Positions 17,137 to 37,251 of a stretch of 64,000 nt of DNA are shown in pieces; the stretch's first letter is position 1, and every line of letters begins with the position of its first letter. Position numbers and translations under genes: made by a program. The DNA is taken from NCBI GenBank assembly GCA_024681475.1, contig JAILAT010000049.1, positions 1 to 64,000 on the forward strand, given 5' to 3'. Under the pieces are notes generated by a model that worked only from the letters and a program-made list of their open reading frames with translations, had not been told where the DNA came from and made no database searches. This DNA is from Bacteroidales bacterium. GTDB lineage: Bacteria > Bacteroidota > Bacteroidia > Bacteroidales > P3.

Positions 17137-20100
17137 ATGAAAAAAACACCAGAAACAAAGGTACTAGGAAAGATAATACTGCTGGCCGTGATGATGGCTG
17201 CAGGACTATTGGCTTCGGGTTCGGCCAAGGCCCAATCTTATTATGTCATAATGGCCAGTAATAATGGCACATGGCATTATCTGGGCAACTCGGACAACAA
17301 TACGACCATTGACGATATGACGACATTCAGCTATGCCTCATGTGTCTGGACATATGAAAGCAACAACATGTACATCAATGGGTATTATCTCCGTAGTAAT
17401 GGTAATAACGATTATTTTGCGCTTTATAATGGTACCAGTGGCAACACAACAACAATAACCATCACTGGTAATAAAATCTACAGAAATCAGTATTCTACAG
17501 GTGGTTGGTGGTCAACCACCTATTATGCCCGATATCTTCGCTATAACAATGGCTGGACATCCACCACTACTGCCAATGACGGTACGCAAGCGGCATATAC
17601 AATCTCGTCGTATTCCGCCCAATCGCTTTCCGCTCCTACCATCACATCCTCCTATACAACGTTTACCGCACTGGGTTCGCAATCCTCCACTCATTCGAAT
17701 TCAACATACACCTATCCCCGATACCAACTTTCGGGGAGCAGCACCTATTACATAAGCGAAGGAGAGAGCACCCCTAACAACTCTACTACAGCACCCACCA
17801 CCACTTCGGGCATCACCTATACTTGGACCCTGAACGACGGAACAAATGACGACGGGCATGTGCGTATCAATGCCACTACTGGCGAGGTGACATATTATGA
17901 CACATATATAGAGAACACCGTAACGACCATCAAAGTGACGGCCACACATACAGCCAGCGGCCTTACTGCTTCGGCGACCAAGGCACTTGCATTCAATGCG
18001 CTTCCTGTTGCCAACCCGACCGCCATCAGTGCAACCGCTAAAACAATTATTGAGGGTGATATATGGGCTGCTAACAACTATACCCTTACCGTTCCGTCGG
18101 GCTACAGCCCCTATAAGTATGTTACGGCCTCTAGCAGCAACACCAGTGTTGCCACGGTGGCCAACAGTGACGGCGGCTTCACTATTACGGGCGTGGCTGC
18201 CGGCAACGCGACGATAACCATTACCGCCTATCAGCAGGACAACACCACTGTGGCCGCCACAACCACCTTCACGTTGACAGTGATAGGGACAGGCGTCAGC
18301 GGTAGCACGGTGACGCTTATCGATTTGGAGGACCATAACTGGAGCTACTATCAGGCCAGCGGCAATTTGCCGACTGGTTATCCGACAGAATATCTCTCGT
18401 CGCCCAATCCGCGCAATGTGAAGATTACCTATCGAGGCATAAATGCGACTGATAGCAAGCCTCATCTTGCCAATGGCAATGCAATAGATAATGCGACCGC
18501 TGTTGCCATTTCTGCGCTTGACGGAGAGGGACAGAACGAGATGATATATTACAAAACTTTGGAGAAGAGTGTGCTTGGCATGTCGGGCGACTATCCGTAT
18601 CAGGTCATCTCCAATCCTTTCAGCAAACGCCCTTCGACAGGCAGCGGCAATAGCAAGGTGTATTATGGCTTTGCCGGCTGGAAAGTCGTTGATGGAGGAG
18701 AGTATATCTCTGAGTATGCTGATAATGCTGTTCTCCCGCTTGATGCCACTATCCATTTCACAGCCCTTGATGCTGGCTATACCCCAAACTGCACCTCGGC
18801 GGAGGTGGTTTTCGAAGCTACTTGGGCCACCGCCACTGTCCAAACAGGAAGCAGTGCCCAAACGTTCACCGGCGGCACATACGAGACCAATTTCTGGGTA
18901 CTTAGCGGTAATAACGATATAGGAAATTTAAATATTCCTGGCAGTTGTACTATGAGTGCACGATATCCCGATGGTACTACTAACTTTACACGAAACCTGA
19001 CTGGCAGAATCAGAGCTAGCGGTGACAATTCCAAGGTGGAATTCGTGAATATGAACAGTACGGGAGAGGTAAATGCTCGTGGATACACCTTCACTGTTGG
19101 TCGCGGAGTGACCAACAGTGGCGATGGTGGTGAATTGATAGGTTGTGCGGCTAATCAAGCTTGTGTCCATACTGTAAAAGTAGAGAGTGGGAAATACGCA
19201 AGTCTTAGGAATTTTACTTCTGGTATTTCTTCTGGAAATTCAGTCGACCAGTTTATGATATTGGGTTGTGACTACGATAGGGCTCGTGCAGTGTCTACAG
19301 CTTCCTATAATGAAAAACTAAATATAACTGGAAGTATGTATGTGGCAGGAACATCTTTGGATTTACAAAGAGCCTCTGGTGCCTTGTATGTCCGTTGCAT
19401 CATTAAAAGTGGTAATTTCCTATCATCAGTGGCAATAGACAATAACTATACTGGTGCAGGTGGAACACAAACGTATTATTTTTCTGTCGGAAATTCCAAT
19501 ACACAAAATGCAGGACGACGTTATCTTGTGATGGAAGGAGGTATCATTAAAGGAATCGCTGGAGGAATGGATGAGGATAACGACCAAAACACGGGAGCCA
19601 GGGCTTTTGACCTCCGTGTTCGCGGAACGGCCCAAATCGATGGTGTAGTGTATGGCGCTGCTGAATTTGCCGGTGGACGCGGAATACGTACCATGGTCTT
19701 TACTGGTGGTACAATCAATGGTTGGATAGCGGGAGGAGCTAATGGTACCCAAGAGAGTGGAGGTGCATTAAATGGTACATCGTATCTTTATTTTGGTGGT
19801 ACTGCAAGAGCAGTTTGTGCAAATGCAACAGCCAATACTGTTATGAATCGTGCTGTGGGTGGTAATGTGTTCGGAGCAGGCTGCGGATTTAATAACAACA
19901 GTACTGCAGGACAGGTCTCTCTTGGCACTAATGTTGTCATCGCAGACGAATCGATTATTGATCGAGGTGTCTATGGCGGCGGATCATACGGTTATACAAC
20001 TTCTACATCCAAAATCTTCATTCTTGGCGGAACTGTCAACGGAAAGGACGGCGGTGTCAACGGCACCTCGTATCAGGCATCCATCACTGGAGGTGTCTTT

Positions 20101-21792
20101 GGCGGTGCTTGCCAGAACCAAGGAGGCACGGTCAATATCTATATGGACGGCGGTCTGGTGAAGGGTGGTGTCTATGGTGGTTCGAATGCCACAGGAACCG
20201 TCTCGGGCAATGTCACCATGCAAATCGACGGTGGTCAGGTGGGTGAGGATGCCAGCCATACCGCCAACATCCACGGTGGCGGCTTTGGCCAGGCTACTGT
20301 GGTGAGCCGCAATGTGGAATTGACGCTGGGCTCATCACCTTCGGCGACGGAGGGCGTGACGGTATACGGCGACGTGTACGGCGGCTCGGCGCTGGGCAGC
20401 GTGAACGGCACCTCGGCGAATACGGACTACCACACCTACGTGACGATGAACAAGGGCACCATCTACGGCTCGCTGTACGGCGGCGCCCTGGGACAGCGTA
20501 ACGGCATCAATGGCGCCACGAGCAACATCGTGGCCAATGTGTACGGACCTGTGAAGGTGAAGGTATATGGCGGCTCGGTGCTGAAGCCTGAGGGCAACCC
20601 GGGCAGCATCTTCGGTGCCAACAACTTGAACGGAGCGCCGCAGCGCAGCGTGACGGTGGACATCTACGGCACCGACCCGGCGCCGGACGTCAGCCACTAT
20701 GCCATCTATGGCGTGTATGGCGGCGGCAACCGCGCCGACTACACCTACGGCAACGGCTATCCCACGGTGAAGGTACACAACTGTAACAACAGCATAGAAT
20801 ATGTCTACGGTGGCGGCAACGCCGCTGCTGTGTCGGCTACCGACGTGGAGATATATGGCGGCAACAAAATAGGCAACGTCTTCGGTGGCGGCAACGGCAC
20901 GGAGGCAGCTGCCAATGTGAATGGCGCCGCCAGTGTGGTTATCTACGGCGGCACGATAGAGAAGGTGTTTGGCGGCAGCAACACCAACGGCACCATCAGC
21001 GGCAACATCACGGTGAACGTCAGCAAGGGTGGCGACAGCGACCCTGAAGGTACTTCGACGGCCTGCGCGATGAAGGTGGGCGAGGTGTACGGCGGCGGCA
21101 ACCATGCCAACAGCCAGGCCGGCACCATCACGATAGGCTGTACGGGCGACCTGACGACGCAGGCGGCGAACCCCAACGAGGTGGGCTATACGCTGGAAGG
21201 CATCGGCGACGTGTATGGTGGCGCCAACGAGGCTGACATCACCAGCGGCACCATCACGCTGAACATTGTCAGCGGTATGGTGAACCGTGTGTTTGGCGGC
21301 AACAATACCAGCGGCAGCATTGCCAATGGCATTACAGTGAATATCAACAAGAACAACGGCTCCAGCTGTGCCAGCCACTGGTACTGCGGTGAGGTGTACG
21401 GTGGCGGCAACATGGCCGACTACGGCGGCACGCCGGCGGTGAACATCATCAATGGCACCGTGTCGCGCAACGTGTATGGCGGCGGCAACAACATCACCGC
21501 CAACGGCGTCGGTGTTGCCGGCGGCAACGTGACGATGACCGGCGGCTTGGTGCAAGGCAACGTCTTCGGCGGCTGCAACACCAAGGGTACGGTGACGGGC
21601 ACCACATCGGTGGCCATCAGCGCCGGCACGGTGAACGGCAGCGTCTATGGCGGCGGCTTGGGCGCCAACACCAGCGTGACGGGCAAGGCTACGGTGACGC
21701 TGAGCGGCACGGCGCACGTGGACACCGATGTCTACGGCGGCGGCAGCGAGGGTACCGTCAACGGCGGCACGCAGGTGACTATCGAGGAGTAG
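17137..21792 (+). CDS. Giant secreted GGGN-repeat protein 1 (predicted beta-solenoid surface protein; N-terminal Ig/Big_2-like region)
   Basis: Signal peptide MKKTPETKVLGKIILLAVMMAAGLLASGSAKAQ; Big_2-like SSNTSVATVANSDGGFTITGVAAGNATITITA; many V[FY]GGGN...V.I.GG repeats. Confidence 0.85.
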   Translation: MKKTPETKVLGKIILLAVMMAAGLLASGSAKAQSYYVIMASNNGTWHYLGNSDNNTTIDDMTTFSYASCVWTYESNNMYINGYYLRSNGNNDYFALYNGTSGNTTTITITGNKIYRNQYSTGGWWSTTYYARYLRYNNGWTSTTTANDGTQAAYTISSYSAQSLSAPTITSSYTTFTALGSQSSTHSNSTYTYPRYQLSGSSTYYISEGESTPNNSTTAPTTTSGITYTWTLNDGTNDDGHVRINATTGEVTYYDTYIENTVTTIKVTATHTASGLTASATKALAFNALPVANPTAISATAKTIIEGDIWAANNYTLTVPSGYSPYKYVTASSSNTSVATVANSDGGFTITGVAAGNATITITAYQQDNTTVAATTTFTLTVIGTGVSGSTVTLIDLEDHNWSYYQASGNLPTGYPTEYLSSPNPRNVKITYRGINATDSKPHLANGNAIDNATAVAISALDGEGQNEMIYYKTLEKSVLGMSGDYPYQVISNPFSKRPSTGSGNSKVYYGFAGWKVVDGGEYISEYADNAVLPLDATIHFTALDAGYTPNCTSAEVVFEATWATATVQTGSSAQTFTGGTYETNFWVLSGNNDIGNLNIPGSCTMSARYPDGTTNFTRNLTGRIRASGDNSKVEFVNMNSTGEVNARGYTFTVGRGVTNSGDGGELIGCAANQACVHTVKVESGKYASLRNFTSGISSGNSVDQFMILGCDYDRARAVSTASYNEKLNITGSMYVAGTSLDLQRASGALYVRCIIKSGNFLSSVAIDNNYTGAGGTQTYYFSVGNSNTQNAGRRYLVMEGGIIKGIAGGMDEDNDQNTGARAFDLRVRGTAQIDGVVYGAAEFAGGRGIRTMVFTGGTINGWIAGGANGTQESGGALNGTSYLYFGGTARAVCANATANTVMNRAVGGNVFGAGCGFNNNSTAGQVSLGTNVVIADESIIDRGVYGGGSYGYTTSTSKIFILGGTVNGKDGGVNGTSYQASITGGVFGGACQNQGGTVNIYMDGGLVKGGVYGGSNATGTVSGNVTMQIDGGQVGEDASHTANIHGGGFGQATVVSRNVELTLGSSPSATEGVTVYGDVYGGSALGSVNGTSANTDYHTYVTMNKGTIYGSLYGGALGQRNGINGATSNIVANVYGPVKVKVYGGSVLKPEGNPGSIFGANNLNGAPQRSVTVDIYGTDPAPDVSHYAIYGVYGGGNRADYTYGNGYPTVKVHNCNNSIEYVYGGGNAAAVSATDVEIYGGNKIGNVFGGGNGTEAAANVNGAASVVIYGGTIEKVFGGSNTNGTISGNITVNVSKGGDSDPEGTSTACAMKVGEVYGGGNHANSQAGTITIGCTGDLTTQAANPNEVGYTLEGIGDVYGGANEADITSGTITLNIVSGMVNRVFGGNNTSGSIANGITVNINKNNGSSCASHWYCGEVYGGGNMADYGGTPAVNIINGTVSRNVYGGGNNITANGVGVAGGNVTMTGGLVQGNVFGGCNTKGTVTGTTSVAISAGTVNGSVYGGGLGANTSVTGKATVTLSGTAHVDTDVYGGGSEGTVNGGTQVTIEE

Positions 21793-21892
21793 CCGATGCT
21801 CCTGGGATCTTGTAGATTATTGCCTGCTTGGCCTTGGCCTTGCAGGCATTTTTTCTCCTGCCGGGGCTCACTACATCTTGTTGATTTTGCTT

Positions 21893-22260
21893 CGCGCGCC
21901 TTCGGCGGGGATTCTCCTGCTCGCTTCGCTCGCGAAATCTGTAAATCTTATAGATTATTTCCGCCTTTGGCGGGATTGATTCTTTTTTGCTGCGCGGCCT
22001 TCGGCTGGGCTCCTTGCCGCTTGCGGCAGAGATCTTGTTGATCTTGTAGATTTTTTGCTGCGCGCGCCTTCGGCGGGGATTCTCCTGCTCGCTTCGCTCG
22101 CGAAATCTGTAAATCTTATAGATTATTTCCGCCTTTGGCGGGATTGTTTCCTTTTTGCTTCGCGCGCCTTCGGCGGGGATGCTTCTTTTTTTTGCGCGGC
22201 CTTTGGTAGGGTTTGTTTCTTCTTTTTTCGCTGCGCGCGCCTTCGGCGGGGTGGGGGGGG
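21893..22260. repeat. Intergenic repeat cluster: perfect 86-bp direct repeat (21893-21978 and 22061-22146) plus further CGCGCGCCTTCGGCGGGG-like units
   Basis: Both 86-bp copies read cgcgcgccttcggcggggattctcctgctcgcttcgctcgcgaaatctgtaaatcttatagattatttccgcctttggcgggattg. Confidence 0.95.
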
Positions 22261-22597: not shown

Positions 22598-25500
22598 ATG
22601 AAAAAAATAAACAAAAGGGAAAGCGAGATGAAGATTATAATTCATTGGACGAAAGGATTATTCAGAGTCATGAGTGTGGCAATGGCTGTGCTTATGCTGC
22701 ATTGTGGAGTTGTCAATGCACAGGTCGTGGTGGGCGGCGACGTCTACGGCGGCGGTGCTTTGGCCAACGTTACAGGCAATGCCCAGGTGGACATCACGAA
22801 AGGCACGGTGTCGGGAGCAGTGTACGGCGGCGGCTTGGGCCGCAAGGCCGGCACCGAGAGTCCCAGTGACCCTGGCGTGGCAGCCCTCGTGACGGGCACG
22901 GCGACGGTGAACATCGGCAGCGATGGCGACCAGACTGTGGTGGCCGGTAACGAAGTTTATGTCAAGCGAGTGTTCGGCTGCAACAATGCCAACGGTACGC
23001 CGCAGGGCGCCGTGAAGGTGAACATCTATGCCACGAACCGCACTGCCGAGAAGGACCAGGCACCCTACGTGGCTGCCGACGCCACCTACTCGATGATCGA
23101 GGTGTTCGGTGGCGGCAACGAGGCTCACTATCAGCCTTCGGTGGCTGGTACCAAGACGTCGGTGCACGTGTATGGGTGCTACAACACGATAGAGAGTGTG
23201 TATGGCGGTGGTAACGCTGCCAATGTGGGCACTGCCGGCACCAACGGTGCTGTGGCCGATACCATCGACGGCGGCCGTATGGACTGGGTGTTCGGCGGCG
23301 GCAACGGTGCCGGCGCCTCCAACCCGGGTGCCAACATCTATGGCAACGTGGGGCTGCTGGTGAACGCGGGTCGTATCAACCACCTGTTTGGCGGCAGCAA
23401 CGAGAAGGGTACCATCAGCGGCACGAAGAATATACAGGTGCTGAACACGGGTTTGTGTACTGAGTACATCGGTGAGGTGTTCGGAGGCAACAACAAGGCC
23501 GAGGGCAGCGGCGCTTTGACGCTGACGCTGCCGTGCGGCGCCAAAGCGCAGAATGTGGGTGCCGTGTATGGCGGATCGAATATGGCCAACTTGACCTCTG
23601 GCACGACGATAGTGTTGAACATCGAGGGCGGCACGTATGATTATGTCTATGGCGGCTCGAAGGGTACGAATTCGATCGCTGCCGATATTGATGGCGACGT
23701 GACGCTGAATCTGCATGGCGGCACGATAGCCAACGCTTTCGGCGGCAACAATGTGAACGGCAACATCACGGGACTTATCACGGTGAATGTCGACTCGTCG
23801 AGTGCCTGCCCGCTGCGCGTGGACAATGTGTACGGCGGCGGCAACCTGGCAACATACAATCCTACGGCAGCGAAAGCGAAAGCGCCCAACTACTCGCCTG
23901 TGGTGAACCTGATACACGGCACAGTGGGCTACCGTTCGGCTCCCAATGCTTTCAACGATGCCGATCCTGGCGACCATGGCCGTGTGTTTGGCGCCGGCAG
24001 GGGCAAGGCTGACGATCTCGATGCCGGCAAGGTGAACTCCAACCCGAAGGTGTGGATGAAGCCTGCCGCGCATGCCGACAGCAGCTTTGTGGTGCTCAAC
24101 GCCATCTATGGCGGCGGCGAGATGGCCGCCGTGAACGGCAGCACGCTGGTGCAGATAGACAACGGCCATGTGGGCAGCACGGAAGGTCTCGGTGCCCATT
24201 TGGCGCACGACAACGGCTACGTGTTCGGCGGTGGCAAGGGCTTGTATGTGGACTACAGGCTTGCCGCGGTGACGGGCAACTGCACGGTGAACATGGCCGG
24301 CGGCTATGTGCACAACACCCTCTTCGGCGGCGGCCAGATGGCTATGGTGGGCGTATATGACTATGCCAATGCCGCTTATGTGTCAAGTCATCCCACCTTC
24401 GTCGAAGGCGAGCAATACAACTGCACGGCCGGCGGCAACACCTATGTGAACATCAGCGGCGGCCAGGTGGGTCCTGTGGATGTGACGATGCAGGCCGACT
24501 TGGGCTTTGTGTTCGGCGCCGGCATGGGCTACTACACGCAGCCTGCCGCTCCGGGCTATGCCGACCCCGACCTCGACCAAGATGAGGATGGTTATATCAA
24601 TGCCCGTTTCGGCTATGTGAACAATACGTATGTGACCATCAGCAGCAACGCCTTCATCGTCGGCGCTGTATGGGGCGGCAGCGAGAACGGCCAGGTGCTG
24701 AACGACTGCCATGTGACCATCAGCGGCGGCCAGATAGGCGTGGGCAAGAACCAGACTGGAATTTACACCGAAGAGCAGTGGACTGCTGCCAAGAATGCGG
24801 TGAAGACCTACTACAACACCCCGACACCTGCCAATGAAGCCGCTCTGGCTACCGTGGCTGGGAACATGCCGGAGTGCGACAGCTGGCCCTATAGGGATGC
24901 CACGGGTGTCACCGACAACCATGGCGACACCTATCACTATTTGCCTTACGATGCTTATGCCGATGTCGACAATGCCGTGGCATTCCCCGCCAGCGTCGAG
25001 AACTACGCTTCGACCACCCATGCCGGCGACGGCCACACCTTCTTCGGCAACGTGTTCGGCGGCGGCTCGGGCTACTATCCCTACCGTGTCGGCGATGCCA
25101 CCAAGCACAGCACGTGGTACGAATTCCAAGGCCGTGTGCGTGGCGACACGTACCTCACCATCGAAGGCGGCCACATCCTGACCAGCGCCTACGGCGGCTG
25201 CGAGTATGCCGACGTGATGGGCGACTGCCATGTGACGATGAGCGGCGGCACCTTGGGTGTGCCGCGTACGGTGGCTGCCGCGCTGGCGCACCCCGTGACG
25301 TGCTATCTCTTCGGTGCCGGCAAGGGCGACCAGCGTACCACCTTCAATGTGCGTACCAATGTGCAGGATGTCGAGGTTACCGTCAACGGCGAGGCCTTCA
25401 TCTTCGGCTCGGTGTTCGGCGGCGGCGAGGACGGCCACGTGATCGGCGACGCGACGGTGAACATCGGCGGCAACGCATGGATAGGCACCACGGGTACCTC

Positions 25501-28500
25501 CTATGTCGACGGCAACATCTTCGGCGGCGGCCGCGGCTTCGGCGGCACGGCACTCACGGCAGGAAGCACAGAAGGCAACGTCGAGGTGAACATCAGCGAC
25601 AACTGCAAGATACTGGGCAACATTTACGGCGGCGGCCGACTGGCGTCGGTGGGCGTGCACATGGTGGCTGTCGGCGATTCGCGCTACGGCTACCTGATAG
25701 GCGACTACAGTGACGACGACCACAGCGATGCCACGCTCGAAGCCCACGGCAACATTGTCATCAACATCACCGGCGGCACGATAGGCAGCAACGTGGAGTT
25801 TGCCCCTGCGGCATTCTCGGATGCGGCATCCTACTCCATCCATGACATAGTACTTTACGACAACGATATCTGGCGCTTCACTGCAGCGCACAGCGGTGCA
25901 TGGAACGCGGCGCATGTCACGAAGATAGACCACACCACCGGCGGCAACGTCTTTGGCGGCAGCATGGGACGACTCACCGACTTGGAAGGTGCGAAGAACC
26001 ACCTGTGGCCTGGCTTGGCCAGGTGCCGCAGCACGGAGGTTAACATCACCGGCAATGCCGCCATCTTCGGCAACGTGTACGGCGGCGGCGAGCTGGGCTA
26101 CGTGATGAAGCACACCGACGTGAACATCGGCACCACGGGCGCACCCGAGATAGGCAAGGCCATCGGCACGCTGCCCAACGTGCGCTACACCGGCTCGGTG
26201 TATGGCGGCGGCTACGGCAGCGACGACATTGAGCAGCACACCAACGACACCGCCAGCCTGAACAACACCTATGTGACGGGTGCCATGCACGCAGGCCGCG
26301 TGTACGGCAACACCGACGTGGCTGTCGCCGGCGGCCATGTGTGGGGCAACGTGTACGGCGGCGGCGAAATGGCCTCGGTGGGTCGCCGATGGATCAACAT
26401 AGCAGCCAACGGCGATGCCGACAACTACATTCCCTTCGTCGGCAGGACGAATGGTACTTACACTGTCGATGCAACAACATACGACCAATATGCATGGAAC
26501 TCCGCTGTGGGCAACGCAAGTGTGACCATCAGCGGCGGCACGGTGGGCGATGTTACCCACACCACTATCGGCACAGAGCGCCAAACTGGCTGGGTGGCTG
26601 GCAAGACCGGCGGTGTCTTCGGCGGTGGCAAAGGCCACCCGGGACGCGTGGGTGAGGACTTCCATTTCACCCGCATGGCCTATGTCGACTCGGCGCAGGT
26701 CAATATCTCTGGTGGCCAGATGGCTGTCATCTTCGGTGGCAGCGAGAACGGCCATGTGCGCTACGGTACTTATGTCAACATGACCGGCGGCACAGTCGGC
26801 TTGGCAATGAGCGATGAGGAAAAAGACATGGACCCCTACGGCTACAGCCCCGTGGTGGTGTTCCATGGCAACGTGTACGGCGGTGGTCGCGGAGTCGATG
26901 TCACGGAAACCGGACACTTGGGCGACGGCTCGGGCCAGGTGTATGGCAGCACCTGTGTGACCATCAGCGCCGGCACGGTGACACACAATGTGTATGGCGG
27001 CGGCTCGCTGGCTACGGTGGGTGTCCAGCAGGCTGATGGATCCTTCCAGGCAGGCACTGGAAAGGCCACTGTCCTTATCAACGGTACCGCCGCCATCGGC
27101 GATGCTGCTGCCAAGGGCCACAACAGCGGCCGTGTGTTCGGCAGCGGGCGTGGTGTGGCAGCAGAAGAATTAGCCTCGCGAGCCTACACGAACAACACCT
27201 ATGTCACCATCGACGGAACGTGTCATGTATACGGATGTGTGTTCGGCAGCGGCGAGAACGGCCGTGTGTGGCAGAACACCTACGTCACCATCAACGGTGG
27301 CCAGATAGGCGAGGATTGGGCTTCATTGGAGGGAAGCCACAAAGAATATATCGGCAACGTCTATGGCGGCGGCCGTGGTATCGACCCTGCAGAAGGTGGC
27401 ATCAGCCGCACGGCGGGACTGGTGCACGGTGCGACGCACGTGAAGGTGACCGGCGGCAAGATATACCATAACGTCTTCGGCGGCGGCTCGCTGGCCAACG
27501 TGGGCGACACTGTGGAGCTCTCGCAATCGCGCATCGATGCCGGCGAGATATATGCGCAATACTATGATACCGTCGATTATGTCTACTCGCATGCTGAGCA
27601 CACTGCCGACGGCTTCACCAATGCCACGAACAACGGCAACACCTACATCTACATCAGCGGCGGCAAAATCGGTATTGACGGTAACAACAACGGACGTGTG
27701 TTCGGCGGTGGCCGCGGTAATGCCGGTCATAGCGACTATACGCCCTTTATCGACCCTCTCAGCACAGACGGTTTCACATCAGGCTCGGTCACCATCGCAG
27801 GAAATTCCTACACCATCTACTACAAGACCGAAGGCGGCAAGGTCATCACCTACCGCGTGACCAACAAGAGCGAGTTTGGTTACGACCAGTCGAAAGCGAT
27901 TTGGGTGTTGGGCAAGGAGCGCAACAGTACTTCAGAACCCTACGAGGATGCTGTGGTGTTGCGCGACTATACGAACCATACCTATGTGAACAGCACACAC
28001 GTGCTGGTGGACTACCCGTCGGTGACAACTACTGAGGTAAGCTATCCTGACGACCGCACCACGCTGTATGCCGTGAACGGATCGGGCGTGATGGAGACCT
28101 ACAACACCCATCTGGCTACTACGAAAACAAACACGGCCAGCTATGACTTTATCCGTGGCAGCGTGTTCGGCGGCGGCGACAACGGCCACGTGCGCGGCAC
28201 CACGGAGGTGGTGATCGAGCAGGGCCGCATCGGCACGCTGACAGGCAACGGCAACGGCGACGTGTTTGGCGGTGGCCGCGGCGAGGGCTTGAGCTACGAC
28301 GGCAACTACAGCTACGACGCCGGCAAGGTGTATGGCAACACCAACGTGACCGTCAACGGCGGCTGGATACTGCACAATGTGTATGGCGGCGGCAACCTGT
28401 CGTCGGTGGGAGAATTCACGGTCACCCTCTCGGGAGCACCTTCGGGTCGCGAGCACGACAAGGATGCCTGGCTGAACGGCTTGGGCTCGGTGGCAGGCTA

Positions 28501-31500
28501 CACCACTGCCAACGGTACCTGCACGGTGGATATTAACGGCGGTATCATTGGCGAGAAAATGACCGACATCATGGATGGCGGCAATGTGCGCGACGGAATG
28601 GACGGTGTCAACTCGAACCTGGGCGGCCACGTGTTCGGTTCGAGTCGCGGCCAGTCGTCGAACGAGGATCTTGTGAATAGAATGGCCTACGTGAACAACA
28701 CCGTTGTCAACATCAACAGCGGTGCCGAAGTGCACGGCTCGGTGTTCGGCGGCGGCGAGAACGGCCACGTGTTCTTCACGACCAACGTGAACATCAGCGG
28801 CGGCACCGTCGGTGTGCAGAACACCGCCACGACGGGCACCATCTATCGCGGCAACGCCTACGGCGGCGGACGTGGTACAGACCATGTGGGCAACACCACC
28901 GCCATCGGCCGTAACTCGGGATTGATTCTAGGTAACAGCTATCTTACCATGACGGGCGGCACGGTGTATCACCATGTGTTTGGCGGCGGCTCGCTGGCCA
29001 CGCTGGGCACCTATACCTACAGAGAGGGCAGCGGTGACGACAAGGACGAGATTACCGCGCTGCAGCGTGTCGAGACCGGCAAGACGGAGGTGTCCATCAG
29101 CGCCGGCACGGTGGGTATCAACGGTGTCAACAACGGCAGCGTGTTTGGCGCCGGCCGCGGAATGGTCGGCACAGTGGGCACTCAAGATATGGACATCTAT
29201 ACATTCGTGGACCGCACCTATGTGACCATCAGCGGAGAAGCCAACATCAAAGGCAACGTGTACGGCAGCGGCGACAACGGCCATGTGCTGCACAATACGC
29301 AGGTAGTGATTGCCGGCGGCACCATCGGTAGCGGAGCCACTGGCGGCAGTCCTCTGATTGGCAATGTGTTCGGTTCGGGCCGCGGTGCCGACACCTATCT
29401 GAACGGCAGCGACGAACCCACTTTGAGCGAAAATGCAGGCCGCGTGTATGGCAACACCGACGTGTATGTCGCCAACGGAATAGTGCGCAACAATGTGTAC
29501 GGTGGCGGCTACCTGGCCTCGGTGGGCGGCAACACCCATGTGACCATCGACAAGCAGGTCACCGTCGACAGAGAGACATGGACCTTCCCGGGAATGGTGG
29601 CCACGTTGACTCCTACCCCGACCACATTCCCTGCCTCAGCAGGTTCGCCTGTGGTGTGGGGCGATGTGTTTGGCGGCTCGGCACTTGGCGAGCTGGGCAA
29701 CGCCTCGGGCACGACGACCGTCGAAGCATTGAACGGCACCTTCGGCAGCACTTCGAGCTATCACTATGTTGCCACTGGTGAACTGAAGGGCAACATCTTC
29801 GGCGGCGGCAACGGCGACGCTGAGGGCAACACCATGGACAGCTACAGCAACGGCACCACCAGCGGTCACCGCGCTGCCAATGTGCTGAACGCCGTGCAGG
29901 TGAACATAGGCAAAACAACGCAGTACGACACCCCCGCCGAGGGTCCGAAGATTCTGGGCAACGTGTTCGGCTGCAACAACATCGCCGGATGCCCGAAGGA
30001 CGATGTCAACGTAGATATATATAGTACATACCATAATACCGGCGACGGCATCACCACGGGCGACGTATACCCCGTGACTCTGAAATCACAGGCGGCCGAC
30101 GTCGATGTGCTCGACAGCCTCGACATCATCCAGGTGTCGACGGCCAATCCCAAGACGCAGAATAACGGCTGGGAAGTGCTTGCCGTGCCCGCACGATATG
30201 CCCTGACGGGTGTGTATGGCGGCGGCAACCAGGCCTCGTATGCTCCCACTGGCGACCACAAGACCACCGTCACGGTGCATGAGTGTCACGAGAACACCAT
30301 CTACCGTGTGTATGGCGGCGGCAAGGGAGGCACGTCGCAGGCTGTGACGCACACCAACGCCGACGTGGTGATTGAAGGCGGCCACTTCTACCAAGTGTTT
30401 GCCGGCGGCAACGGTGAAGGCACAGGTAACCTGGGCGCCAGCGTGACCACGGCTAACGTGACCATCAAGGGCGGTGTCATCCAGAATGTGTTTGGCGGCT
30501 CGAACAGCAACGGTACGGTGACCAACACGTCGGTGAACTTCGAGACCAGCATCTGCGACGACTGGCAGCTGATACAGGAGGTCTTCGGCGGCGGCAACCG
30601 CGCTACCGGCAATGGCAACATCGTGGTGAACATCCCCTGCCACGCCAAGGGACTGAAAGATGTCTATGGCTGCTCGAACATGGCCGACTTCACGGGCGAT
30701 GTGCAGCTGAACATCTTCGGCAGCAAGATGCAGCGTGTCTTCGGCGGTGCCCGCAGCGCCAACATCAATGGCAACGTGGAGGTCAACATCTTCGCCGGCG
30801 ATATCGACGAGGTGTTCGGCGGCAACAACGTGGACGGCTACATCTTCGGCGACCTGGCCAGCGACAAGGGCAACATCGTGGTGAACATCGACATGAACAA
30901 CGACATCTGCCCCGACGAGAAGAACATCAACTATGTGTACGGTGGCGGCAACCTGGCAGCCTACCAGCCCGATGTGACGGGTGTGACAGGCACCAGCACC
31001 TACGACTTCAGCGGAGCCTCCTTTGGCTATGAGGCCACGCGCGTGTCGCCGCAAGTGAATGTCATCAGCGGCACGGTGAACACGGCAGTGTTCGGCGGCG
31101 GCCTGGGTGCTACGGCAGTGGTGAAGGCCAACCCGAGTGTGGTGATTGGCGCCGACCGCGTGCAGCAGCCCACCTACGAGCTGTCGGATCCGCTGGATCC
31201 TGGTTCGGACAAGATATACACTGGCGTGGAGGCACTGCTTACGCCGGTGTCCAACAACACCGTTGTCATCGGAGCAGGTCCTGCTTCCGACTTGCGCGGC
31301 TGTGTGCTGGGCGGCGGCAACGAAGCCGAAGTGTCGGGCAACACGAAGGTGAATGTGAAAGGCATCAGCGTGGTTCACGGCCATGTGTTCGGTGGTGGCA
31401 ACGCTGCCGACATCAGCGCTGACACCGAGGTCATCATCGGCGGACGGTCGAGGACCTTCGGCAACGTGTATGGCGGCGGCAACCTGGGAGAGATTGGTGG

Positions 31501-31531
31501 CAACACCAAGGTGATAGTCAACCAGGAGTGA
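22598..31531 (+). CDS. Giant secreted GGGN-repeat protein 2 (about 2977 aa; start may be the internal ATG at 22628)
   Basis: Signal peptide (GLFRVMSVAMAVLMLHCGVVNAQ) leading directly into VYGGGALANVTGNAQVDITKG repeats; repeats continue to the stop. Confidence 0.85.
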   Translation: MKKINKRESEMKIIIHWTKGLFRVMSVAMAVLMLHCGVVNAQVVVGGDVYGGGALANVTGNAQVDITKGTVSGAVYGGGLGRKAGTESPSDPGVAALVTGTATVNIGSDGDQTVVAGNEVYVKRVFGCNNANGTPQGAVKVNIYATNRTAEKDQAPYVAADATYSMIEVFGGGNEAHYQPSVAGTKTSVHVYGCYNTIESVYGGGNAANVGTAGTNGAVADTIDGGRMDWVFGGGNGAGASNPGANIYGNVGLLVNAGRINHLFGGSNEKGTISGTKNIQVLNTGLCTEYIGEVFGGNNKAEGSGALTLTLPCGAKAQNVGAVYGGSNMANLTSGTTIVLNIEGGTYDYVYGGSKGTNSIAADIDGDVTLNLHGGTIANAFGGNNVNGNITGLITVNVDSSSACPLRVDNVYGGGNLATYNPTAAKAKAPNYSPVVNLIHGTVGYRSAPNAFNDADPGDHGRVFGAGRGKADDLDAGKVNSNPKVWMKPAAHADSSFVVLNAIYGGGEMAAVNGSTLVQIDNGHVGSTEGLGAHLAHDNGYVFGGGKGLYVDYRLAAVTGNCTVNMAGGYVHNTLFGGGQMAMVGVYDYANAAYVSSHPTFVEGEQYNCTAGGNTYVNISGGQVGPVDVTMQADLGFVFGAGMGYYTQPAAPGYADPDLDQDEDGYINARFGYVNNTYVTISSNAFIVGAVWGGSENGQVLNDCHVTISGGQIGVGKNQTGIYTEEQWTAAKNAVKTYYNTPTPANEAALATVAGNMPECDSWPYRDATGVTDNHGDTYHYLPYDAYADVDNAVAFPASVENYASTTHAGDGHTFFGNVFGGGSGYYPYRVGDATKHSTWYEFQGRVRGDTYLTIEGGHILTSAYGGCEYADVMGDCHVTMSGGTLGVPRTVAAALAHPVTCYLFGAGKGDQRTTFNVRTNVQDVEVTVNGEAFIFGSVFGGGEDGHVIGDATVNIGGNAWIGTTGTSYVDGNIFGGGRGFGGTALTAGSTEGNVEVNISDNCKILGNIYGGGRLASVGVHMVAVGDSRYGYLIGDYSDDDHSDATLEAHGNIVINITGGTIGSNVEFAPAAFSDAASYSIHDIVLYDNDIWRFTAAHSGAWNAAHVTKIDHTTGGNVFGGSMGRLTDLEGAKNHLWPGLARCRSTEVNITGNAAIFGNVYGGGELGYVMKHTDVNIGTTGAPEIGKAIGTLPNVRYTGSVYGGGYGSDDIEQHTNDTASLNNTYVTGAMHAGRVYGNTDVAVAGGHVWGNVYGGGEMASVGRRWINIAANGDADNYIPFVGRTNGTYTVDATTYDQYAWNSAVGNASVTISGGTVGDVTHTTIGTERQTGWVAGKTGGVFGGGKGHPGRVGEDFHFTRMAYVDSAQVNISGGQMAVIFGGSENGHVRYGTYVNMTGGTVGLAMSDEEKDMDPYGYSPVVVFHGNVYGGGRGVDVTETGHLGDGSGQVYGSTCVTISAGTVTHNVYGGGSLATVGVQQADGSFQAGTGKATVLINGTAAIGDAAAKGHNSGRVFGSGRGVAAEELASRAYTNNTYVTIDGTCHVYGCVFGSGENGRVWQNTYVTINGGQIGEDWASLEGSHKEYIGNVYGGGRGIDPAEGGISRTAGLVHGATHVKVTGGKIYHNVFGGGSLANVGDTVELSQSRIDAGEIYAQYYDTVDYVYSHAEHTADGFTNATNNGNTYIYISGGKIGIDGNNNGRVFGGGRGNAGHSDYTPFIDPLSTDGFTSGSVTIAGNSYTIYYKTEGGKVITYRVTNKSEFGYDQSKAIWVLGKERNSTSEPYEDAVVLRDYTNHTYVNSTHVLVDYPSVTTTEVSYPDDRTTLYAVNGSGVMETYNTHLATTKTNTASYDFIRGSVFGGGDNGHVRGTTEVVIEQGRIGTLTGNGNGDVFGGGRGEGLSYDGNYSYDAGKVYGNTNVTVNGGWILHNVYGGGNLSSVGEFTVTLSGAPSGREHDKDAWLNGLGSVAGYTTANGTCTVDINGGIIGEKMTDIMDGGNVRDGMDGVNSNLGGHVFGSSRGQSSNEDLVNRMAYVNNTVVNINSGAEVHGSVFGGGENGHVFFTTNVNISGGTVGVQNTATTGTIYRGNAYGGGRGTDHVGNTTAIGRNSGLILGNSYLTMTGGTVYHHVFGGGSLATLGTYTYREGSGDDKDEITALQRVETGKTEVSISAGTVGINGVNNGSVFGAGRGMVGTVGTQDMDIYTFVDRTYVTISGEANIKGNVYGSGDNGHVLHNTQVVIAGGTIGSGATGGSPLIGNVFGSGRGADTYLNGSDEPTLSENAGRVYGNTDVYVANGIVRNNVYGGGYLASVGGNTHVTIDKQVTVDRETWTFPGMVATLTPTPTTFPASAGSPVVWGDVFGGSALGELGNASGTTTVEALNGTFGSTSSYHYVATGELKGNIFGGGNGDAEGNTMDSYSNGTTSGHRAANVLNAVQVNIGKTTQYDTPAEGPKILGNVFGCNNIAGCPKDDVNVDIYSTYHNTGDGITTGDVYPVTLKSQAADVDVLDSLDIIQVSTANPKTQNNGWEVLAVPARYALTGVYGGGNQASYAPTGDHKTTVTVHECHENTIYRVYGGGKGGTSQAVTHTNADVVIEGGHFYQVFAGGNGEGTGNLGASVTTANVTIKGGVIQNVFGGSNSNGTVTNTSVNFETSICDDWQLIQEVFGGGNRATGNGNIVVNIPCHAKGLKDVYGCSNMADFTGDVQLNIFGSKMQRVFGGARSANINGNVEVNIFAGDIDEVFGGNNVDGYIFGDLASDKGNIVVNIDMNNDICPDEKNINYVYGGGNLAAYQPDVTGVTGTSTYDFSGASFGYEATRVSPQVNVISGTVNTAVFGGGLGATAVVKANPSVVIGADRVQQPTYELSDPLDPGSDKIYTGVEALLTPVSNNTVVIGAGPASDLRGCVLGGGNEAEVSGNTKVNVKGISVVHGHVFGGGNAADISADTEVIIGGRSRTFGNVYGGGNLGEIGGNTKVIVNQE

Positions 31532-31593
31532 CCCGTGGACAGTGATATATAGATATGTATTCTATTTATATTAAAAAGCAAAACAAAGCAATC

Positions 31594-34500
31594 ATGAATA
31601 ATATAAAAAGCATGCAATTGTCAAAGGCAATAACAAGAAGAACGAAGGGAATGGTCCCGCTGCTGCGGAGTCTGACGGCCTGTGTGTTGATGCTGGCCGC
31701 CGTGGCCGGCAGTGCCAAGGCACAGGATAAGCCTTACGTTATCGTCAAGGATGGCCACTACCTGGCGCACGTGGAGACGAGCCCGGGAGTGTGGGCAGTG
31801 CAGGATGTCACGACGTTCGGTCCCAACTGCCTGTGGCTGTCGGGCAGCAACATCAACCCGTCGGGTACAAACCACAACTACTACTTCGACGACGGTGTGA
31901 ACTACCGATTCCTGATGGCGCCGCTGGAAGCCAACGGGGAGCTGGAGCTGAGCGCCTCGCAACCCATTACGTCGCTGCTGCGCAACACGGACCAGAGCTA
32001 CTATTTCTACGACTGGGATGCAGACAGCTACGGTCGTGGCGTGGCCCGTGGCCATTGGTACTCGGAGCTGACAGTGCAGAGCACCTGCGAAGCCGCCAAT
32101 CACCAATGGAGTGTAGAAGACGGCCAGTGCTGGGATGTCTTCTGGGTGGCATACTCCGGCGGATGGACCACTTCGAGCAACAGCTATGATTTGCCTGAGG
32201 CTACAGCATCCCGTTTCCGCCTCGTGACTGTGGAGGAGCATGCCCAAGAGGTGAGCAACGAGACGGGCGGTATCGCCGGCCTGACGGACTTCAGCCTGTC
32301 GTATGTTGCCACCCCCCTGGCCAGCCATACGCCCGGAGTGACGGTGAGCAACTATTCGTATGACTACATCGCGGCATACACCACCTACACCTTTGGCGGC
32401 ACGACGCACAACTACTGGGGCGATGCCGACCATGGCACCAGCGTGCCGGACAACGCCACGAGCAGCGGCAACACGCCCACGGCCTACCTGTGGACCCTGA
32501 CGGGCGACGGCGCCGCCTACCTGTCGTTTGAGCAAGGCAGCAATGTGCTGGAGAGCACCTCGTCGTCGGTTCCGACGGTGTACTACCGCACGGAGAACAA
32601 CGAAGGCCACAAGACGGCTACACTGACCCTGACGGTGACCTACAGCGACGGCTCCACGCAGACACGCACGGCAGAGATAACGGTAAACACCCCCTGCCAG
32701 AGCCCTGTAAGGGCCGCCGAGCCGGTGGTGAACTACGAGGAGGTCATCGTGTCGTGGGTGCCGACGGCAACAAGCTACAAAGTGTACTGGCAAGAGCAAG
32801 GCGCCGGCGAATGGGAGTCGGCCACGGTGGGCGATGTCACCTCGTATGCCATCAGCGGCTTGAGCTACAACACGACCTACAACTACAAGGTGGCAGCCTT
32901 CTGCAGCGAGGTGGAGCAGAGCGTCCCTGGCGGCCAGGTGTATGAATTCACCACGAAGGAGACCCCCGGACTGCTGATATACGGTGCTGTGTTCGGCGGC
33001 GGCCGCATGGCCGACGTGACGGGCAATACCGAAGTGGTTATCATCAACTGCGACAGCATCAGCGCCGTGTATGGCGGCAACGACATATTGGGCGAGGTGA
33101 AAGGCAGCAACGGTGCCACCATCGCGCTGGGTGTGAACAGCGGCGACAGCTACGACAGCTACGGCACCACGACATCGAACTTCAACATCGGCTCGGTGTA
33201 CGGCGGCGGCAACGGCTACTATGCCTACAACGGCACCTATACCACAGCAAGTTACAACACCACCTACACCTTGGCAGAGAATGCCAATGTGAATGCCATG
33301 ACACGTCAGCACCAGATTGAAGGCATCGTGTGGACCAACAATACGGGTGCTGCGCTCTCCAACAAGACCTGCCCCAAAATCAAGAAAACGAACCTGCGAG
33401 TGCGTAACAACTATGTGTATGTCGACTCGCTCTTCGGCGGTGCCAAAAACGCCATCCTGAGCGATGGAACCAACGACGTGACCATCACCCTCGACGGTGG
33501 CACGATATACGCTGTCTTCGGCGGCAACAACTGGGGCGGCTCGCTGGGCTACAACTCGCATGAATATATCACCGTCAACGCCACGAAGACAGATCTCACA
33601 CCCAATATCAGCAACACAGCCCGCACCGGCTACGGCCGCGACTTCGGTGTGCGCTACCTGTTTGGCGGCGGCAACAAGGTGACAGGCTACACCTCCCATA
33701 TCACCGTCAACGGCGGGCAGGTGGACACCCTCTTCGGCGGCGGCAACCAAGCCAGTGTGAACAACGGAGCCAACATCCTGGTCAACTGCACAGTGGGCGA
33801 CGATGCCGGCGACGGAAAGACCTTCGGCAACACCTATACGCAAGCCATCAGCAGTTATTCGGCCGGCACCATCACCGCCAAGGAAACCCCGACCTACGCA
33901 TGGGACGGCACGGGCGTGTACAATGTGCGCACCCTCTTTGGTGGCAACAACGCAGCGCCGATGGATGTCGTGCCTACCGTCACGCTGACCTCGGGCAGCG
34001 CGGGCACCGTGTATGGCGGCGGCAACGCCGGCGACATGCTGGCACAGACCTCCACCACCATCAAAGGACAAAGCGTCAAATACGGCACCCATGTGACGAT
34101 GAGCAGCGCCAACATGCTGGTGGACAATCTCTACGGCGGTTGCCAGCAGAGCAATGTGGACTACAGCACCTGGGTGGAGCTGCAGAACGGCCATGTGGGC
34201 ACTGTGTATGGTGGCTGCAACATCAGTGGTGACGTGGGCAGCACGAAGATATATCTGGAAAGCAGCACTCCGCGCACCTTGGAGAATCAGGCCGTGCAGG
34301 GCGGCACCTACGTGGTGGCCACCGGCGGCACGGTGTACAAAAACCTCTTCGCCGGAAGCAACGGATACTACCACTGCAACAACGGAGAGGTGTATACCAA
34401 CTCGCCCTTGATTAACTACGACGATGCCGAAGGACTGTATTTCGGCTTGGCCATACCCACGCACAACGAGACGCACGTCTATGTGAGTGAGGCCAGCCCC

Positions 34501-37251
34501 AGCGTGCCGATGCTGGTGAAAGGCAACGTCTACGCCGGCGGCAACCTGGCACCAGTGGGTTTCGACGACAACCACGGCAAGCCCTATCCTGTGCATGTGG
34601 GCATGGCCTCGGTGTCCATGGAGGGCGGCACGGTGAACGGTGACGTGTACGGCGGCGGCAATATGGCCTCGGTATACGGCAGCAACGAGGTGTGGGTGTC
34701 GGGCGGCACCATCGGCGGAGCCCTTTACGGCGGCAACGACCGTATCGGCCAGGTGGCCGACATGACCAACCGTCTGTTGGATATGACCACCGCCTCGGAC
34801 GGCGAGACCTCGCTGGGATCGGTGGCCACCTATGTGAAGGTGACAGGCTCGCCGACCATCGGAACGGTATTTGGCGGCGGCAACGGCGACTACGGATACA
34901 CCTTTGCTTTGGACGGCATCGACTATTGCGATGCTACAGACAAGCCCATCCAGAGCAACACCTTTGTGGACATCAACCTTGACGAAAGCGGCACCATCAA
35001 CACGGTGTACGGCGGCGGTAACGGCGTGACGGTGACGGGCACAGCGAAAGTGTTCCTCAATGTAGTGAGCCCCACCTTGACGCGTAACCACGTGGGCACC
35101 ATCTATGGCGGCAACAACAAGGGCAACTTGGCCCTAGTGCCCGATGTCATCCTGCTCAGCGGGCAGGTGGGCGATGTGTACGGAGGCTGCAACCAGGGTG
35201 CGATGACCGGCTCGGTGGCAGGCTCATCGATTGATGCATCGCTCAGCGCATACACAGGTCTGGGCAGCATAGTGTGGCTGCGCAGCAGCTACAACGGCCA
35301 TACGCCCAACTTCACGGTGAGCGGCAATGTCTACGCCGGCTGCAACATGAACAGCGTGACCAACAACACGCTGGTGCTGATGGAGCACGGCACAGTGCAG
35401 GGAGCCATCTTCGGCGGCAGCAACACCTCGGGTACCGTGAGCGGCAACACAAATGTGGTGGTGACCGGCGGCACAGTGGGCGACGGCACTACCGACGACG
35501 GTATCTATGGCGGCGGCAAGGGTCAGCTCACGGGTGTGAGCGGCGACGTGAACGTCACCGTGGGACCCATGACGGCAACCTCGAATGCCACTTCGCAGAT
35601 ACCTTATATATATGGTGACATCTATGGCGGATCGGCATTGGGTGCAGTCAACACCAACACGTCGAACACCACCACGGTGGAGATACTCAATGCCCACATC
35701 GTCGGCAACGTGTACGGCGGTGGCCAGGGTGCCGCAGTGCTGGACGGCAATGGCTACATCTCTTCGGTGACCACCCAGGCTGTGGTGAACGGCAACGTAC
35801 ATGTGAAGATTGGCGACAACGCCGGCCAGACGGAGACGCAGAACTATGTGACCATCGACGGCAGCGTGTTCGGCTGCAACAACTTGGCCGGAACGCCCAA
35901 GGGTACGGTAAGCGTCGACGTGTACCGCACCGACAAGAGCTACTATCCCAACCCCGAGCCCACCACCGTGGGGAACATCACCCCGCAGGCCTCGTGGGCC
36001 ATCGGCAAGGTGTATGGCGGCGGTAACTTGGCGAACTATGTCCCCACTACACCCTCGGCTCCCGCAGTGCATGTCTACAACTGCTACAACACGATAGAAT
36101 ACGTATACGGCGGCGGTAACGCAGCCAGCGTGCCGGCAACGAATGTGACCATCGACGGCGGCCGCTTCGGCAAGGTGTTCGGCGGCGGTAACGGCGAAGG
36201 CACGGGCAACCCCGGCGCCGACATCGGCGGCGACGTGCGGCTGGTGGTCAACGGCGGTATCATCGACCAGCTGTTCGGCGGCAGCAACACGAAAGGTACC
36301 ATCAGCGGTACCACCAACCTCAACGTGACCAACGTACCGCTCTGTACGCGTCTCATCAAGGAGATCTACGGCAGCGGCAACTTGGCACCGAGCACCGGCG
36401 ACATCGTGGTGAACATCCCCTGCGGCTCGAAACTGAAAGATGTCTACGGCTGTAGTAACCAGGCTGACCACACCGGCAATGTGACCATCAATGTGTTTGG
36501 CGGCACCATCGACCGCGTGTTCGGCGGCGCCAAGAACGCCGACATCAAGGGCAACGTCACCGTCAACATCTTCTCGGGCAACATCAACGAGGTATTCGGC
36601 GGCAACAACGAAGGTGGCTACATCTTTGGCGAGCTGGCAGAGAGCAAGGGCAACATCGTGGTGAACATCGACATCGACAATGCCATCTGCCCGTCGGAGA
36701 AGCGCATAGGCTATGTGTATGGCGGCGGCAACGATGCCGACTACCGTCCCGACGTGACTGGCTACACCACCACTTCCGGCAACTACACTTTCGATGCGGC
36801 CACCTTCACCAACCAGCCCACGCGTCTGTCGCCTGAGGTCAACGTCATCAGCGGCACCGTCGACGTGGCAGTGTTTGGCGGCGCCAAGGGCGACGTGAAT
36901 GCCGCCACCATGCAGCTGCAGGCCAACCCGGTGACGACCATCGGCGCTACGCGCAAACAGGAGCCCACCTTTACGCTGGAAAATCCGCTCGACCCGTCAT
37001 CGGCCAAGACATACACGGGCGTGACACCCCTCGCGCCAGGCAACTATGTCGACAACAACAACGTGGTTATCGGTGCCGGCGCTGCCGCTGAGCTGCGCGG
37101 CAACGTGTTTGGCGGCGGCAACGCTGCCAAGGTGACCGGCAGCACCAAGGTGCTGATACGCGGCAACAACACCTCCGTGGAGAACAACGTCTACGGCGGT
37201 GGCAATGCTGCCAAGGTCACGGGCAGCACCGATGTGAAGATAGGTGAATAA
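31594..37251 (+). CDS. Giant secreted GGGN-repeat protein 3 with N-terminal region and fibronectin type III-like domain
   Basis: Signal peptide ending AKAQ; FN3-like VNYEEVIVSWVPTATSYKVYWQEQ...YAISGLSYNTTYNYKVAAFCS; GGGN repeats to the C-terminus; start chosen at MNNIKSMQ. Confidence 0.85.
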   Translation: MNNIKSMQLSKAITRRTKGMVPLLRSLTACVLMLAAVAGSAKAQDKPYVIVKDGHYLAHVETSPGVWAVQDVTTFGPNCLWLSGSNINPSGTNHNYYFDDGVNYRFLMAPLEANGELELSASQPITSLLRNTDQSYYFYDWDADSYGRGVARGHWYSELTVQSTCEAANHQWSVEDGQCWDVFWVAYSGGWTTSSNSYDLPEATASRFRLVTVEEHAQEVSNETGGIAGLTDFSLSYVATPLASHTPGVTVSNYSYDYIAAYTTYTFGGTTHNYWGDADHGTSVPDNATSSGNTPTAYLWTLTGDGAAYLSFEQGSNVLESTSSSVPTVYYRTENNEGHKTATLTLTVTYSDGSTQTRTAEITVNTPCQSPVRAAEPVVNYEEVIVSWVPTATSYKVYWQEQGAGEWESATVGDVTSYAISGLSYNTTYNYKVAAFCSEVEQSVPGGQVYEFTTKETPGLLIYGAVFGGGRMADVTGNTEVVIINCDSISAVYGGNDILGEVKGSNGATIALGVNSGDSYDSYGTTTSNFNIGSVYGGGNGYYAYNGTYTTASYNTTYTLAENANVNAMTRQHQIEGIVWTNNTGAALSNKTCPKIKKTNLRVRNNYVYVDSLFGGAKNAILSDGTNDVTITLDGGTIYAVFGGNNWGGSLGYNSHEYITVNATKTDLTPNISNTARTGYGRDFGVRYLFGGGNKVTGYTSHITVNGGQVDTLFGGGNQASVNNGANILVNCTVGDDAGDGKTFGNTYTQAISSYSAGTITAKETPTYAWDGTGVYNVRTLFGGNNAAPMDVVPTVTLTSGSAGTVYGGGNAGDMLAQTSTTIKGQSVKYGTHVTMSSANMLVDNLYGGCQQSNVDYSTWVELQNGHVGTVYGGCNISGDVGSTKIYLESSTPRTLENQAVQGGTYVVATGGTVYKNLFAGSNGYYHCNNGEVYTNSPLINYDDAEGLYFGLAIPTHNETHVYVSEASPSVPMLVKGNVYAGGNLAPVGFDDNHGKPYPVHVGMASVSMEGGTVNGDVYGGGNMASVYGSNEVWVSGGTIGGALYGGNDRIGQVADMTNRLLDMTTASDGETSLGSVATYVKVTGSPTIGTVFGGGNGDYGYTFALDGIDYCDATDKPIQSNTFVDINLDESGTINTVYGGGNGVTVTGTAKVFLNVVSPTLTRNHVGTIYGGNNKGNLALVPDVILLSGQVGDVYGGCNQGAMTGSVAGSSIDASLSAYTGLGSIVWLRSSYNGHTPNFTVSGNVYAGCNMNSVTNNTLVLMEHGTVQGAIFGGSNTSGTVSGNTNVVVTGGTVGDGTTDDGIYGGGKGQLTGVSGDVNVTVGPMTATSNATSQIPYIYGDIYGGSALGAVNTNTSNTTTVEILNAHIVGNVYGGGQGAAVLDGNGYISSVTTQAVVNGNVHVKIGDNAGQTETQNYVTIDGSVFGCNNLAGTPKGTVSVDVYRTDKSYYPNPEPTTVGNITPQASWAIGKVYGGGNLANYVPTTPSAPAVHVYNCYNTIEYVYGGGNAASVPATNVTIDGGRFGKVFGGGNGEGTGNPGADIGGDVRLVVNGGIIDQLFGGSNTKGTISGTTNLNVTNVPLCTRLIKEIYGSGNLAPSTGDIVVNIPCGSKLKDVYGCSNQADHTGNVTINVFGGTIDRVFGGAKNADIKGNVTVNIFSGNINEVFGGNNEGGYIFGELAESKGNIVVNIDIDNAICPSEKRIGYVYGGGNDADYRPDVTGYTTTSGNYTFDAATFTNQPTRLSPEVNVISGTVDVAVFGGAKGDVNAATMQLQANPVTTIGATRKQEPTFTLENPLDPSSAKTYTGVTPLAPGNYVDNNNVVIGAGAAAELRGNVFGGGNAAKVTGSTKVLIRGNNTSVENNVYGGGNAAKVTGSTDVKIGE

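Follow-up and report, generated by a model that had tools for sequence, protein, structure and literature searches.

A tandem array of four-coil super-modules in a giant, putatively surface-exported protein of gut Bacteroidales

Giant 2 (G2), the second of three successive giant open reading frames (ORFs; G1, G2, and G3, all on the plus strand) in a 64-kb stretch of Bacteroidales DNA (hereafter, the window), carries a tandem array of eight complete four-coil super-modules (B1–B8, aa 638-2356), with a degenerate copy, B0, upstream. As judged from sequence comparison, this array is old, has been kept intact between species, and is not currently growing. The best reading is that G2 is a putative surface-exported β-solenoid scaffold or adhesin. 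We favour, with moderate confidence, the fuller account that it is a secreted, very long β-solenoid of A and B super-modules, whose array arose from old duplications of four-coil blocks and was maintained from then on by purifying selection. Briefly, the coils of G2 fall into super-modules of two types, A with about 12 coils and B with four, and variable-length loops, one of which is CBM5/12-like, would project from the solenoid. Whole four-coil blocks would have been duplicated before the compared species diverged and, because the duplicated unit is a whole block, added blocks would keep the solenoid in register; purifying selection would since have kept the array while the loops diverged. 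The super-repeat would illustrate how a solenoid can grow by register-keeping blocks. The more useful result is the family itself, i.e., giant, secreted, probably solenoidal proteins that neighbour T9SS-tailed members.

The B array and the predicted fold of G2

The window is the start of contig C54 of a genome of 2.38 Mb that is 87% complete, and its features are listed in Table 1. The three giants are composed mostly of coils of the type NVYGGGNxAxVxGNTxVxIxGGTV, which in G2 span approximately 25-40 residues each. Each giant begins with a signal-peptide-like stretch that ends in A-Q, and only 23 nt separate the stop codon of G2 from G3. Unit boundaries were obtained by cutting G2 at [VI][FY]GGG motifs, which gives the repeating coil order VFGxGRG – VFGGGENGHV – NVYGGGRG – VYGGGSLAxVG (RG / ENGHV / RG / SLAxVG) over positions 24509-29665. 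When coil order was permuted, the z-scores of coil similarity were 7.0, 7.4, 5.8, and 5.9 at lags of 4, 8, 12, and 16, respectively (0 of 2000 permutations reached the observed value at each lag), and odd lags were depleted. The lag-4 signal is absent from G1 and G3 in the same permutation. Since the observed values were never reached and the other two giants yield nothing at lag 4, the array is real and specific to G2.

Table 1. Positions of the three giant ORFs in the window and of the parts of G2
Feature	Position	Strand	Remarks
Giant 1 (G1)	17137..21792	+	1551 aa; member of the family; a single module A, module B absent
Giant 2 (G2)	22598..31531	+	2977 aa; ORF bearing the B array
Predicted Sec signal peptide	22598..22720	+	ends ...GVVNA|Q; read by eye
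N-terminal module A, about 12 coils	22724..23983	+	aligns with C-terminal modules of G1, G2, and G3; profile match aa 43-434
Degenerate super-module B0	23984..24508	+	RG and SLA coils, without ENGHV coil; position kept in orthologues
Super-module B1	24509..25306	+	266 aa; positional orthologues
Super-module B2	25307..25948	+	214 aa; positional orthologues
CBM5/12-like insert in B2	25814..25906	+	aa 1073-1103; Pfam PF02839 below cut-off in four orthologues
Super-module B3	25949..26614	+	222 aa; positional orthologues
Super-module B4	26615..27133	+	173 aa; positional orthologues
Super-module B5	27134..27697	+	188 aa; positional orthologues
Super-module B6	27698..28630	+	311 aa; first coil carries a long loop insertion
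Super-module B7	28631..29140	+	170 aa; positional orthologues; AlphaFold2 model with B8
Super-module B8	29141..29665	+	175 aa; positional orthologues; AlphaFold2 model with B7
C-terminal module A	29666..31087	+	profile match aa 2351-2802
C-terminal coils VFGGGNxAxI..NVYGGGNxGxIGGNTKVIV	31088..31528	+	end common to the family
Giant 3 (G3)	31555..37251	+	1898 aa; same family

The four-coil order and the lag-4 signal bear out the tandem super-module that the initial annotation had placed in the centre of G2. The five block starts given there are the NNTYVTI/ENGHV parts of B4–B8, the more divergent versions that it placed from about 24600 onwards correspond to B1–B3, with B0 as an additional degenerate copy, and the insertion that it noticed around 27520-28140 comprises one coil of 75 aa in B5 and another of 155 aa in B6. 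Its unit of about 175 aa, spaced by 500-550 nt, holds in part: a repeating unit exists, but what is constant is the number of coils and not the length, which ranges from 170 to 311 aa, and the proposed spacing fits the shortest copies only. The B unit is therefore better defined by four coils than by 175 aa. Unit length varies because the inserted loops differ in length, and this variation accounts for the behaviour of the DNA: autocorrelation yields only weak peaks (510 and 519 nt among others) and no clean 500-550 nt period, and TRF reports no tandem array in the B region. DNA identity between B units is low.

Among the closest homologues (L041, L042, and L044, described below), part of the first-coil loop of B6 is missing in L044. 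The CBM5/12-like insert in B2 is conserved in all four orthologues, the window included, and matches PF02839 in each with a score (15.5, 17.3, 23.9, and 22.3 bits) below the gathering score of 26.2; the E-values are 0.017 in the window and 0.0048, 4.3e-5, and 1.4e-4 in the others.

AlphaFold2 models were obtained for B7 with B8 (pLDDT 87, pTM 0.90) and for module A of G3 with its cap (pLDDT 88, pTM 0.90), and both are repetitive β structures with strands at the coil spacing, from which the coils of G2 likely form a β-solenoid. Foldseek returned no match with E <0.5 for either model in the PDB and nothing at E <= 0.001 in the PDB and BFVD; its weak matches are mostly β-solenoid and left-handed β-helix proteins, none of them significant. 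Sequence searches of the PDB, with G2 as well as with both alignments, gave chance matches only.

The family and its link to type IX export

In Pfam and NCBIfam, no profile matches the coil regions of G1–G3 above cut-off; an fn3 domain occurs in G3 alone among the giants, and neither an anchor nor an adhesion domain reaches the curated cut-off in G2. A family search profile comprising module A and the C-terminal coils matched 64 of 119 genomes within the genus, i.e., more than half of those sampled, 9 of 392 genomes of the order, and 2 of 393 genomes of the phylum, both of which fall in the same order; the genomes are mostly metagenome assemblies. On these searches, G2 belongs to a secreted giant family that has no match in Pfam or NCBIfam, and none among solved structures, and that is common in one gut Bacteroidales genus. 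The best 80 of 291 named relatives are all from Bacteroidales or Bacteroidetes genomes, whose titles mostly name cattle, goat, sheep, yak, buffalo, roe deer, or horse gut, or carry rumen isolate codes; the habitat picture rests on these 80, and other habitats are possible. The family is undescribed in the literature searched, in which the coverage of subscription papers is limited. A phage origin was considered and rejected: none of 119 IMG/VR pattern matches encodes a relative, and G2 matches no PHROGs family.

Members of the family reach 7129 aa, a single gene occupying up to about 21 kb, and 42 of 46 complete ORFs have signal-peptide-like N-termini. At the named loci, no more than 60 aa separate the last coil from the stop codon in 55 of the 60 ORFs whose end is known, and wherever a locus holds several family ORFs, these are on the same strand (16/16). 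The ORFs may also be joined: G1 and G2 form one fused ORF in L044, and G1- and G2-like parts share one ORF in L042 and L045. The tandem layout of several genes, the ending of most members on the solenoid without further domains, and a composition very high in Gly, Thr, Asn, and Val and low in Lys and Arg would suit purely structural proteins, i.e., a surface-layer or matrix fibre for coating, spacing, or phage shielding that binds no specific ligand. We regard this reading as possible but doubtful, since the conserved loop inserts, including the CBM5/12-like one, and the C-terminal CHB_HEX_C-type or InlB-type domains of some members suggest more than bulk. If the giants are surface scaffolds, rumen and hindgut Bacteroidales might use them to attach to plant particles or to one another.

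Evidence on export comes from the neighbourhood. The TIGR04183 and PF18962 profiles find no T9SS tail in G1–G3; the genome of the window holds 52 such tails over cut-off, none at the ends of the giants, together with three PorP-family genes. Searches for the core T9SS translocon (SprA/SprA_N) found no match in this genome and are uninformative because the controls were equally silent. On another contig of the same genome (C30), a 3777-aa coil protein ends in a T9SS tail. Furthermore, in four relatives (G009, G012, G015, and G029), the next gene after the G2 orthologue, starting 8 to about 550 nt past it, encodes a coil protein of 4009-4392 aa with a PNP-type T9SS tail. This tail is the last 90 residues; it is confirmed by Pfam PF18962 in G012 and G009 and identified by a profile match and the motif in G015 and G029. 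The C30 protein aligns with these companions over most of its length (27-29% identity), and the coil region of G3 is common with them. Through gene neighbourhood, these links connect the cluster with type IX export, and we infer that G2 itself crosses the outer membrane. A periplasmic G2, never exported past that membrane, would agree with three giants that have Sec signals and lack a T9SS tail; it is rather unlikely, however, given the tails on same-family neighbours in relatives and a solenoid of >60 coils and 2977 aa, which would be roughly 30 nm long by arithmetic (about 0.48 nm per coil). The genes flanking the giants that were scanned are of housekeeping type, and those of the window were not found at the loci of relatives, which provide only a few kb of flank.

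Taking fold, family, and neighbourhood together, we tentatively propose that the coil family may be a β-solenoid class absent from the PDB and may constitute a T9SS-linked, multi-gene giant surface scaffold of rumen and hindgut Bacteroidales, lengthened by register-keeping four-coil blocks.

Age and origin of the array

Full-length homologues of G2 are found in three uncultured Bacteroidales genomes, L041 (2995 aa), L042 (from yak rumen), and L044, and align with it over nearly all of its length at 54-58% identity; the number of units equals that of the window in L041 and essentially so in L042 and L044. Within the window protein, the B units are 32-45% identical to one another, whereas same-position units of the window and these three homologues are 56-77% identical, which indicates that the array is older than the species compared. 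In a tree of 77 units, all nine window units cluster with orthologous units of the same position, seven of the nine positional groups having a support of 0.93-0.995. The group of WIN_5 has a support of 0.53, and WIN_7 sits with its L041 and L042 counterparts inside a wider clade (support 0.81). Only two of the 77 units have their nearest neighbour within their own protein. Positional clustering and this scarcity of same-protein neighbours imply that the array predates the species and that its units are not undergoing homogenisation.

More distant relatives differ in the number of units detected: 8 in G012, 9 in G009 and G025, 10 in G015, 12 in G029, 13 in G016, and 14 in G022, on a count that gives 9 for the window with B0 included and that moves by about one with the coverage filter. 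In G016 and G029, units 6, 8, and 10 cluster together, as do units 7, 9, and 11 (G016 numbering), indicative of a triplicated two-unit block; two rounds of duplication of such a block in a common ancestor would give this pattern. The range of 8-14 units and the shared triplicated block place growth in the past. The array was thus built by tandem duplication of a multi-coil unit, for which the lag-4 order also speaks, and the growth by unequal recombination that the initial annotation had proposed is partly supported, as past block duplication but not as a current process. A tandem repeat that is unstable at present, with unequal recombination causing differences among strains, e.g., for antigenic variation, could explain the tandem organisation, the differing unit numbers between species, and the G016/G029 block; on collections with one genome per species, this alternative is nonetheless distinctly unlikely, as units resemble their counterparts in other species more than each other, almost none is nearest to a unit of its own protein, and the DNA shows neither a TRF array nor high identity between units.

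Within the preferred account of an old, selectively kept array, two observations concern its later history. In a smaller unit set, the N-terminal units of the window fall with those of G009, G025, and G016 and the last two with G012, which may reflect mosaic ancestry; uneven sampling would explain it just as well. For the G009 and G025 orthologues, the first 1750 aa give a dN/dS of 0.42, which favours this account; the ratio reaches about 1-1.6 between aa 1972 and 2300 and is near or above 1 in the C-terminal ~400 aa, which counts against it. These windowed ratios were used instead of the whole-protein ratio of 0.58 because the C-terminal part behaves differently, for which relaxed constraint, recombination, or diversification could be responsible.

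Comparison with known systems

Long β-solenoid stalks are typical of the two-partner secreted (TPS) CdiA/FHA proteins, and by that general likeness the giants could be delivery or competition proteins of the contact-dependent-inhibition type with the solenoid as a toxin stalk; this is very improbable, given that 55 of the 60 ORFs with a known end close on solenoid coils and carry no domain after them, that Pfam finds no two-partner secretion domain in the giants, and that no immunity-like partner was recognised among the scanned flanking genes. As a putative surface scaffold or adhesin, G2 resembles FHA and HxuA in being very long, secreted, and made mostly of repeated coils with a predicted β-solenoid fold, and HxuA and Ag43 are among the weak fold matches of the models (E > 0.5, not significant). 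However, its coils are of the YGGG type, and it has no recognised toxin end and no TPS domain (no Pfam match at E <= 1). Likewise, Pfam finds no autotransporter C-terminal β-barrel in G2, which ends on a coil, and no haemolysin-type Ca2+-binding repeat of the RTX β-roll; in contrast to the GGxGxDxUx nonapeptides of RTX proteins, the coils of G2 measure at least about 25 aa, and their GGGNxA turns lack Asp.

Among large surface proteins of Bacteroidota exported by the T9SS, the tailed companions find their counterparts, and about 50 sorting tails occur in the genome of the window; G1–G3 differ in lacking the tail and any recognised catalytic domain. A rumen Bacteroidetes lineage exports multi-modular CAZymes by this route (PMC5831590). 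Fibrillar adhesins (PMC8286594) combine a stalk with an adhesive domain, and G2 similarly has a stalk of repeats and an insert that is a candidate for sugar binding; its stalk is, however, predicted to be an insert-bearing solenoid and not a chain of discrete domains, the adhesive domain is below cut-off, and no anchor was found. Finally, the giant repeat adhesin MpAFP (PMC4083281) is, like G2, a very large repetitive surface protein, if the surface position inferred for G2 is correct, and its β-helical ice-binding domain (3p4g) is the closest by TM-score among the PDB matches (0.26/0.35, E 4.9); MpAFP is built of ~120 identical Ig-like repeats, whereas G2 is built of strongly diverged coil units.

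Selection along G2 and cysteines of module A

Between the two G2 orthologues compared (L110/L111), dN/dS is approximately 0.4 in the B array, the tandem four-coil super-modules in the centre of this giant coil protein, whereas it rises to approximately 1–1.6 in the C-terminal region (aa 1972–2300), possibly owing to diversification or recombination. In module A, the ~12-coil super-module, of G3 (aa 1438–1898; 35866–37248) and of the relatives in A3, several cysteines located where the coils turn are almost invariant (positions 73, 160, 186, and 275 of the aligned stretch) and may form disulfides.

Gene arrangement and the companion coil protein

G1-like and G2-like parts are combined in a single ORF in L042, L044 (4748 aa), and L045. 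In the window, the G1–G2 intergenic stretch (21880–22250) is occupied by imperfect repeats with lengths of 72 and 34 nt (GCGCGCCTTCGGCGGGG), accompanied by hairpins of the CCGCC-TTT-GGCGG type. Directly after the G2 orthologue, four relatives encode a coil protein of ~4000 aa that ends in a type IX secretion (T9SS) sorting tail; its counterpart in the window's genome is located on another contig than G2, and its coil region is shared by G3.

Coordinates of companion proteins and antisense ORFs
Feature	Location	Strand
T9SS-tailed coil protein, relative	L125:486-13019	
T9SS-tailed coil protein, relative	L126:476-12565	
T9SS-tailed coil protein, relative	L127:715-12741	
T9SS-tailed coil protein, relative	L128	minus
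Counterpart, window's genome (G000)	contig C30, L109:4545-15875	
Antisense ORF, 912 aa	window 24383-27121	minus
Antisense ORF, 1156 aa	window 31621-35091	minus

Other features of the window

A 12-nt tandem repeat (CAAAAACTACCA, six copies; 16333–16407) within a Schlafen/AlbA_2-domain gene (15243–16619) encodes a Thr-Lys run. The very long ORFs antisense to the giants are probably a by-product of the Gly/Ala-rich codon use of these genes.
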